This document shows positions 29,175-31,691 of a stretch of 59,309 nucleotides of DNA, piece by piece. The notes beneath the pieces were generated by a model. The model saw only the letters and a program-made list of their open reading frames with translations, ran no database searches and was not told the origin of the DNA. The stretch is from Aquificales bacterium (GTDB taxonomy: Bacteria; Aquificota; Aquificia; Aquificales; Aquificaceae): positions 1-59,309 of the forward strand of contig JALWBR010000046.1 in the NCBI GenBank assembly GCA_027037055.1. Reading direction: 5' to 3'. The position numbers were made by a program, and so were the translations under genes. Each line of letters opens with the position of its first letter. The stretch's first letter is position 1.

Positions 29175-29993
29175 ATGGACGGTCAAATTCCTATGCAGGA
29201 AACTGTATTTGCTAAAAGGTCTGTACCGGGCGTTAGGCGTATAATTCTTGTCGGAAGCGGTAAGGGTGGTGTGGGTAAATCAACTGTTTCCGCCAATATA
29301 GCCCTTGCGCTTAGCAAACTTAACAGTAAAGTGGGTTTACTTGATGCGGATATATACGGTCCGAGCATACCCAAGATAATGGGAGTGGAAGGGAGCAGGC
29401 TTCAGGTATCTGAAAAAAATAAGATAATACCTATAAGTAAGTGCAATATAAGCCTTGTTTCCATGGGCTTCCTTCTGCCCTCCGAAGATGTGCCTGTTAT
29501 ATGGCGCGGTCCCATGCTTATGAAGGCATTGACACAGATGCTGTTTGATGTGGACTGGAATGACCTTGATTATCTTGTTATAGATTTACCCCCGGGTACC
29601 GGAGATGTACAGCTCACCTTGGCTCAAACCATAAAGATAAACGGGGCGGTTGTAGTAACAACACCTCAGGATGTCGCCCTTGCGGATGTCAGAAAGGCTA
29701 CCGCCATGTTCCAAAAGGTTGAGATTCCCGTCTTGGGTGTAATAGAAAATATGGCTTATTTTATATGTCCAGACAGCGGTAAAAAGTACTATATATTCGG
29801 TAAAGGGAAAACTTCCGAGTTCGCATCCGCATACGGCATTAAGGTATTGGGTTCCATACCCCTTGATCCGGAAGTTGCAGAGCTTTCTGATAAGGGTAAG
29901 CCTGTTGTTATTGAAAAGCCTGATTCCGAGGTTGCGAAGGCTTTTATAGCCATAGGTAAAATCATTAAAGAACTTGTAGAAAAGGAGGAGTAA
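29175..29993 (+). CDS. mrp: Mrp/ApbC-type iron-sulfur carrier ATPase (variant CxxS motif)
   Basis: P-loop ATPase of the Mrp/Nbp35 family, which carries and transfers Fe-S clusters as a dimer. The deviant Walker A GSGKGGVGKST (27-37), DADIYGPSIP and DLPPGTGD are intact. The family CxxC that holds the bridging cluster reads CPDS here: Cys198 is kept but the second Cys is Ser201. The N-terminal MIP18-like domain found in many Mrp proteins is absent (272 residues). A GGAGG site precedes the ATG. It is followed 2 bases later by the IscS-like gene. Confidence 0.9.
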   Translation: MDGQIPMQETVFAKRSVPGVRRIILVGSGKGGVGKSTVSANIALALSKLNSKVGLLDADIYGPSIPKIMGVEGSRLQVSEKNKIIPISKCNISLVSMGFLLPSEDVPVIWRGPMLMKALTQMLFDVDWNDLDYLVIDLPPGTGDVQLTLAQTIKINGAVVVTTPQDVALADVRKATAMFQKVEIPVLGVIENMAYFICPDSGKKYYIFGKGKTSEFASAYGIKVLGSIPLDPEVAELSDKGKPVVIEKPDSEVAKAFIAIGKIIKELVEKEE

Positions 29994-29995
29994 AC

Positions 29996-31216
29996 ATGTT
30001 TTTAGAAAAAAAAGGAAAAAGGATAGCTTATATGGATCATATTGCAACAACACCTGTTGCAGAGGAAGTGCTTGAGGCTATGCTTCCTTACTTCAGGAAG
30101 GACTTTGGAAATCCTACATCCCTTCACAGCTTCGGTCAGAAAGCTAAGAAGGCTATAAATGAGGCACGTGAGAAGATAAATGCCCTTATAAACGGAAACT
30201 CTCCCGAAGAGATACTTTTTACATCTGGAGCCATAGAGGCAAACAACATAGCCATAAAAGGTATTGCTAAGGCTTATGAGAGGAAAGGAAAACACATTAT
30301 AACCACAAAAATAGAACATCACTCAATACTTCACTCGTGCAAGTCTATGGAGAGGGAAGGATGGGAAGTAACTTATCTGGATGTTGATAAGTACGGGTTT
30401 GTGGATAAGGATCAGCTCAGGGATTCAATAAGGGAAGATACGGTTCTCGTGTCCATAGGTCATTCAAACAGGGAGATAGGTACAATCCAAGATATTAAGG
30501 AGCTGGTAAAGATCGTTAAAGAAAAGAATCCGAAGATAATATTCCACACTGATGCTGCTCCCACAGTAGGACATTACTACTTTGATGTACAGGATTTGGG
30601 TGTTGATGCGGTATCTTTCACAGCCCATCTTATGTACGGTCCTAAGGGTGTTGGTGCACTGTGGACTAAGAAGGGGGTAAGGATTAAACCCTTTATAGAA
30701 GGTGGAACGCAAGAGAGAGGTATAAGGGCGGGTACGGAAAATGTTCCTGGTATAGTCGGTTTCGGTGTTGCAGCAGAGCTTACAATGAGGGAACTTGCGG
30801 ACAGGGTAGAAAGGCTTTCAAAATACAGGAATATGATGAGATCTGCTTTTGAGTCTGAGATTGATATGATTGATTTTACAGGTCATCCGGAGAAAAGACT
30901 GCCTCACCATCTGTCCATGATAGTCCATCTTATAGAGGGAGAGGCTATGCTTCTTAGACTTGATCTTATGGGTATAGAAACCGCATCGGGATCCGCATGT
31001 GTATCCCTTGCCCTTAAGCAGTCCCATGTTCTTTCCGCAATAGGTATTCCCAAAGAAGTCTCCAACGGTTCAATAGTATTCAGCTTAGGAAGGGAAACTA
31101 CGGAGGAAGATGTCAAATATGTTATAGAGGAATTTCCCAAAGTTATTAAATGGCTTAGGGAGGTATCACCCTTTACAGCGGAAAATTGGGAGAAATATGT
31201 TAAGGGCGGAAAGTGA
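29996..31216 (+). CDS. IscS/NifS-like protein lacking the PLP lysine
   Basis: A 406-residue protein with the overall sequence of class V cysteine desulfurases: MDHIATTP start, EHH at 107-109, Asp186, and Cys335 in SGSACVS at the sulfur-carrying loop. The PLP-lysine position, normally His-Lys before YGPKG, reads His211-Leu212. Two other cofactor contacts are changed: Asn to Arg159 and Gln to Pro189. Normal PLP chemistry is therefore unlikely. The IscS of Archaeoglobus fulgidus also lacks this lysine, so a scaffold role with free sulfide as the sulfur source is possible. It directly follows mrp; no IscU is adjacent. Confidence 0.88.
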   Translation: MFLEKKGKRIAYMDHIATTPVAEEVLEAMLPYFRKDFGNPTSLHSFGQKAKKAINEAREKINALINGNSPEEILFTSGAIEANNIAIKGIAKAYERKGKHIITTKIEHHSILHSCKSMEREGWEVTYLDVDKYGFVDKDQLRDSIREDTVLVSIGHSNREIGTIQDIKELVKIVKEKNPKIIFHTDAAPTVGHYYFDVQDLGVDAVSFTAHLMYGPKGVGALWTKKGVRIKPFIEGGTQERGIRAGTENVPGIVGFGVAAELTMRELADRVERLSKYRNMMRSAFESEIDMIDFTGHPEKRLPHHLSMIVHLIEGEAMLLRLDLMGIETASGSACVSLALKQSHVLSAIGIPKEVSNGSIVFSLGRETTEEDVKYVIEEFPKVIKWLREVSPFTAENWEKYVKGGK

Positions 31217-31691
31217 TACAGCAGAAGGGCTTAAGGGTGTTAGGGGTTGTTGATGTGTATTCGGAAAGGTTTTTGTCTGTAACTGGGTGTTTAAGGCTTT
31301 GGTTTATCTCAATCAACGGATACAGAAAGAAATCCCTTTCAACAAGGAAGGGATGAGGTACTTTTAAGTGAGGAAGGTCAATAATACTGTTTCCGTAAAG
31401 GAGTATGTCTATGTCTATCTCACGCGGACCCCATCTGAATCTGTCTATCCTTCCTACCCTTTTTTCAATTTGTTTAACAATATTGAGAAGTTCTTCCGGA
31501 AGTATGGTGGTTTCTGCTTTAATAACACAGTTAAGAAAAGGTGCTTGGTTTTCAACACCCCATGGGTTACTCTCATACACGGTGGAAACCTTGAGTATCT
31601 TTATATGGTTTTTGAGTTCTTCTATGGCTCTAAGTATGAAAAATGTGCGGTCTCCTATGTTGCTTCCCAAAGCTAAGAATACAGTTTTCAT
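31200..31691 (-). CDS. folK: HPPK, folate biosynthesis pyrophosphokinase
   Basis: 2-amino-4-hydroxy-6-hydroxymethyldihydropteridine diphosphokinase. The 163-residue protein has LALGSNIGDR at the N-terminus, the substrate-binding YESNPWG and the catalytic stretch RWGPREIDIDILLYG followed by LKVPHPF. No other fol gene is adjacent. The last 17 bases overlap the end of the converging IscS-like gene, and the start is 37 bases from the divergent flavin oxygenase gene. Confidence 0.95.
   Translation of the reverse strand: MKTVFLALGSNIGDRTFFILRAIEELKNHIKILKVSTVYESNPWGVENQAPFLNCVIKAETTILPEELLNIVKQIEKRVGRIDRFRWGPREIDIDILLYGNSIIDLPHLKVPHPFLVERDFFLYPLIEINQSLKHPVTDKNLSEYTSTTPNTLKPFCCITFRP

Follow-up and report, generated by a model that had tools for sequence, protein, structure and literature searches.

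An IscS homologue without its PLP Schiff-base lysine is conserved across the Aquificales and may act as a partner of IscU

An iscS-like gene with an altered PLP pocket

The window analysed here is a stretch of 59,309 nucleotides from the draft genome of an Aquificales bacterium; the Aquificales are bacteria of hot springs and vents. At 29996..31216 on the + strand, the window carries a single uninterrupted frame that encodes an IscS-like protein of 406 amino acids in which the lysine that forms the Schiff base with PLP is absent. The product is a class V aminotransferase (Aminotran_5/IscS; PF00266, 259.6 bits) and scores 321.7 against NCBIfam NF002806, the broad 'IscS subfamily' model with a cut-off of 304. 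For each of the equivalog models (NifS, IscS and NifS-epsilon) its NCBIfam score falls short of the cut-off, consistent with a diverged member of the IscS group.

To assign residue states, the product was aligned to E. coli IscS. The counterpart of Lys206 is Leu212 (codon CTT; 30629..30631, +), preceded by His211. The PLP contacts Asn155 and Gln183 are replaced by Arg159 (30470..30472, +) and Pro189 (30560..30562, +), respectively. These three substitutions had been proposed in a preliminary description of the window and were borne out by the alignment, which revealed two more: Thr76, a contact of the PLP phosphate, is Ile80 (30233..30235, +), and the conserved active-site Arg354 is Val361 (31076..31078, +). 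The residues kept are His108 (E. coli His104), Asp186 (Asp180), His211 (His205) and Cys335 (30998..31000, +), the counterpart of the persulfide-carrying Cys328. Ser333-Ala334-Cys335 and Leu340 are also retained. Measured against an active cysteine desulfurase (EC 2.8.1.7), the protein therefore has membership of the IscS subgroup of fold type I, class V enzymes and the loop cysteine, and lacks both the internal-aldimine lysine and the contacts made by Thr76, Asn155, Gln183 and Arg354. A missing catalytic lysine together with a loop cysteine is the combination that marks the IscS of Archaeoglobus fulgidus.

The gene immediately upstream (29175..29993, +) encodes a 272-amino-acid Mrp/ApbC protein, an NBP35-type Fe-S carrier P-loop NTPase (Pfam PF10609, 350 bits), and ends 2 bp before iscS. 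Of the loci with enough upstream sequence, 69 of 69 show this adjacency, on the same strand. Downstream, a convergent ORF of 163 amino acids (31200..31691, −), folK-like by eye, overlaps the final 17 bp of iscS and so bounds the mrp-iscS unit; the order is the same at the same-genus locus L105. A promoter and terminator scan returned nothing above chance.

In the window's family iscS sits beside mrp and iscU lies elsewhere. In the window's genome iscU heads a run with genes for a ThiI-PP-loop/NFACT-R protein, TusA, a DUF1858 protein and Nfu. The two groups are joined in one run in the sister family: mrp, iscS, iscU, a ThiI-like gene, tusA (in some cases), nfu and aroE. As a side observation, the gene 3′ of iscU across the Aquificales (L095:3776-4810, +, in the window's genome) encodes a 344-amino-acid protein with ThiI-PP-loop and NFACT-R_2 domains, a CxxC within NPCVDC and no rhodanese match; it may be a tRNA thiolase that uses sulfide.

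The Lys-less state is fixed and under purifying selection

A first search of relatives gave a match in 52 of 61 genomes. The preliminary description had asked whether Leu212 is fixed in the Aquificales. The lysine position is Leu in 35/35 sequences of the window's family (f1) and Tyr in 12/12 sequences of the sister family (f3), presumably the Hydrogenothermaceae, so it is the Lys-less state that is fixed. All 47 orthologues share Ile80, Arg159 and Cys335 and have Pro or Ala at position 189, and Val361 is found in each of the 46 whose sequence reaches that site. A broader tblastn tally, taken across every locus retrieved, gave the pocket pattern I-R-P/A-L/Y-V for the Lys-less clade, which includes loci from metagenome-assembled genomes named Aquifex, Thermocrinis, Hydrogenobacter, Hydrogenobaculum and Aquificaceae. 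At the same five sites the Lys-bearing relatives have T-N-Q-K-R, with a single exception (Ser for Thr in L141).

In a FastTree phylogeny 48 Lys-less orthologues from the two families form one clade with a support of 1.0. The A. fulgidus IscS was placed among the Lys-bearing proteins, so that, with few outgroups sampled, the loss of lysine there appears to have been separate. Lys-less proteins from beyond the Aquificota were sampled through the PDB and published papers.

Between the window and L105, dS is 0.49 and dN 0.007, giving a dN/dS of about 0.015; more distant pairs with measurable dS gave 0.03-0.10. These ratios rule out drift of a pseudogene. As judged from the substitution pattern, the Lys-less iscS is under strong purifying selection, for what would be a function other than that of the textbook enzyme. 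An error of sequencing or assembly, with lysine present in relatives, had also been raised as an explanation, and the genome is indeed a draft in 54 contigs. Not one of the 47 orthologues has the lysine, however, and the same residues recur in dozens of independent genomes; an error can be discounted almost entirely.

Desulfurases and scaffold proteins in Aquificales genomes

The window's genome is 99.96% complete in its 54 contigs. It contains one significant match of the IscS/NifS type, which is the protein described above; two extra alignments, at E 0.007 and 0.09, were marginal. Class V aminotransferase matches numbered six. Just one further match was strong: G000:C18, which resembles aspartate-glyoxylate and phosphonate aminotransferases and was rejected as a second desulfurase on its likeness to the former, and the remainder were rejected as SufS because they scored under about 41 bits. 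The search for a second, lysine-bearing IscS or SufS that had been suggested at the outset thus found none in this genome, of either the IscS/NifS or the SufS type. There was no SUFBD_core match either, and SUF was rejected as an alternative Fe-S system here given the absence of SufB/D. IscU is present as one copy on another contig (L095 3307-3774) and is complete, with Cys35, Asp37, Cys62, Cys106 and the LPPQK motif. The genome also encodes six rhodanese domains across four reading frames.

A second desulfurase with the lysine is present in most genomes of the sister family, and a few genomes from the window's family have one too (G005, G007, G022 and G028). Where one is present, the Lys-less protein is not the sole desulfurase homologue. 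These Lys-bearing proteins (L045-L052, L063-L067, L069 and L070) are of the HKINAPK or HKFHAPK type and are 30-38% identical.

Two further arrangements were seen within the order. A 99%-complete Aquificaceae genome (G025; L104) has the iscU gene run and no IscS match at E <= 1e-5; this may reflect a dispensable IscS partner or an assembly that lacks a contig. One genus from another family of the same order (G037, G039, G041, G043, G045 and G049; L091-L094) is without IscS and IscU and encodes a protein of the SufB/D type, some 320 amino acids long. Given that genus, the order seems to have undergone an exchange of Fe-S systems.

Predicted structure and comparison with known systems

With 17 window and locus sequences as input, AlphaFold2 predicted a type I desulfurase fold for the window's IscS with a mean pLDDT of 88.9 and a pTM of 0.89. 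Low confidence is confined to a few short stretches, amongst which is the loop of Cys335. The model and the alignment together agree with the earlier view that Cys335 and the fold are kept. The closest solved folds to the model are those of A. fulgidus IscS, either alone (4hvk), with IscU (4eb5) or as the D199K mutant (4r5f).

The PDB also holds seven distinct 406-residue chains of a single orthologue that is 78% identical to the window's IscS. All 404 printed residues of the wild-type chain A of 9wfy are identical to locus L008 of genome G005 (presumably Aquifex aeolicus), and chain D of the same entry is an exact match to the IscU of that genome (L073). In 9wfe the orthologue carries the reversions R159N and L212K, and the set then grows by V361R (9wfb), P189Q (9wf8), I80T (9wew), I16A (9wer) and further neighbours (9wep). 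The G005 orthologue has the same five pocket states as the window's IscS, and Cys335; it differs in coming from another genus, and from a genome with a Lys-bearing protein (L052) where the window's genome has none. None of the seven entries was among the 50 best matches in the fold library, which covers releases up to 2026-04-08, so their release is probably later than that date. We found no paper in the open library that describes the series or the Aquificales protein. The preliminary description had called such a protein little-studied: this is correct in part, given the seven entries for the orthologue in the PDB. A Lys-less IscS with its IscU is already in the PDB by way of the orthologue; what is added here is breadth, across the order.

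The parallel with A. fulgidus drawn in the preliminary description is correct. In that IscS the lysine is replaced by Asp199, there is no desulfurase activity, and the cysteine is a ligand to the [2Fe-2S] cluster of IscU (PMC7585200). The protein, A. fulgidus IscS-2 (4eb5, 4eb7 and 4hvk; D199K in 4r5f), is the best structural match to the model at 44-45% identity, and like the window's IscS it lacks the lysine, keeps the cysteine and has IscU as its partner. It differs in that the lysine has become Asp and His205 Asn, whilst Thr and Asn are kept at other pocket sites. IscS1 of Methanosarcina acetivorans, which we compared by its published description, has likewise been reported to lack the catalytic lysine and been likened to A. 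fulgidus IscS (PMC7585200); it is archaeal and one of several iscSU copies.

Two minimal systems invite comparison. In MIS (MisS and MisU) an IscS-IscU core is the main Fe-S system, as in the window's genome, but MIS has been described with a cysteine desulfurase and without a carrier (PMC12192291), whereas in the Aquificales the desulfurase chemistry would be gone and the Mrp and Nfu carrier genes are linked to iscS and iscU. SMS (SmsC/SmsB) of Methanocaldococcus jannaschii takes sulfide as its sulfur source and has no cysteine desulfurase (PMC12192291). In this it resembles the system proposed here, but its scaffold is of the SufBC family, and the window's genome has no SufB-type scaffold.

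Proposed function and alternatives

Assembly of the ISC type is taken to begin with a cysteine desulfurase. Judged from the sequence, PLP-based desulfuration of cysteine is very unlikely with five pocket residues changed. We think it probable, by analogy with A. fulgidus, that the window's IscS is an inactive protein that serves IscU in an ISC system fed by sulfide. The reading is supported by the loss of the pocket, its order-wide fixation, purifying selection, a genome with no other desulfurase of the IscS or SufS type and no SUF, the presence of a complete IscU, and the linkage of the gene to mrp and, in the sister family, to iscU. Tight conservation despite the lost lysine and pocket suggests that the protein probably only helps IscU to build clusters from environmental sulfide, and that Cys335 is retained and IscU is complete speaks for the A. 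fulgidus model. A pairing with IscU is also suggested by 9wfy, which contains the orthologue (78% identical) together with the IscU from its own genome.

The mechanism would run as follows. Sulfur would not be released from cysteine, as the internal aldimine with PLP could no longer form. The protein would most likely still dimerise and dock IscU, and Cys335, on its mobile loop, could act as a temporary ligand or a shield whilst a [2Fe-2S] cluster forms on IscU. That cluster would be assembled out of Fe2+ and inorganic sulfide, in line with the proposal for A. fulgidus IscS; Nfu and the Mrp/NBP35 carrier encoded beside iscS would hand it on. We infer in this scheme that PLP and activity are absent, that sulfide is the sulfur source and that Cys335 is a cluster ligand. 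A precedent for the sulfur source comes from E. coli, where H2S under anaerobiosis rescues an iscS mutant and not an iscU mutant (PMC13015791). Together with the use of sulfide by SMS, this indicates that sulfide can feed IscU without IscS.

Some observations count against a role as an inactive scaffold partner: the second, Lys-bearing desulfurases of other genomes, the G025 genome with IscU and without IscS, and the rhodanese and TusA proteins that could load Cys335. The last of these would be central to a persulfide relay, in which a rhodanese, TusA or polysulfide charges Cys335 and the sulfur goes to IscU and to tRNA thiolases, making the protein a sulfurtransferase rather than a scaffold partner. 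The invariance of Cys335 and its loop, the tusA gene within the iscU operon and the six rhodanese domains are all consistent with such a relay. On the other hand, the cysteine of A. fulgidus IscS is a cluster ligand (PMC7585200), and the residues through which E. coli IscS contacts TusA (W45, E49 and D52) are not kept, although this last point is weak because the Lys-bearing L141 seems to be without them too. For the same reason we dropped loss of a TusA-binding surface as a sign that the protein is no longer a sulfur hub. Overall, we regard the relay as unlikely.

Residual catalysis is a good deal less probable. Here PLP, or a PLP-cysteine adduct, would be held without a Schiff base and a slow desulfuration would suffice for growth. 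His108 and Asp186 are retained, and the K206A mutant of E. coli IscS still binds some PLP and has been argued to undergo a very slow partial reaction; the same mutant, however, had no desulfurase activity (PMC9978102), and the Lys-less IscS has four further pocket residues replaced and fixed. We give equally little weight, or slightly less, to a role unrelated to IscU, for example as a partner of Mrp only. That idea draws on the window's family, where iscS is beside mrp and away from iscU, but the Lys-less gene of the sister family sits directly between mrp and iscU, and 9wfy appears to show IscU binding for the orthologue.

If the inactive protein does serve IscU, then the structural role of IscS on the scaffold is separable from the supply of sulfur and has been kept for a very long time. 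An order with a fixed inactive IscS, and without a second copy in most of the window's family, would let the contribution of IscS to IscU beyond sulfur donation be tested in nature, and its place in an ISC system would bear on sulfide as an early sulfur source for Fe-S proteins. A broader claim stands at about an even chance in our judgement: that most of one bacterial family makes all of its Fe-S clusters without a cysteine desulfurase, an inactive IscS holding the scaffold, joined in nif clusters by an inactive NifS-like copy with which some species mature nitrogenase, and sulfide providing the sulfur.

Lys-less NifS-like copies in nif clusters

Five relatives of the window have a more diverged Lys-less copy, in which the lysine position is Tyr, Ser or Phe and Arg159 is retained. 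One of them is in genome G035 (L056/L149), and the gene context given here is that of the other four. These NifS-like proteins of Aquificaceae nif clusters are encoded at L146:4739-5932 (−), L147:5121-6188 (−), L148:5027-6133 (−) and L103:2190-3353 (+). In all four genomes (G029, G020, G011 and G031) the copy has an aldehyde-ferredoxin-oxidoreductase-like gene on one side and a homocitrate-synthase-like gene on the other; nifB is nearby, as is nifH in G029. This suggests that Lys-less NifS-like proteins have also been recruited to the maturation of nitrogenase.
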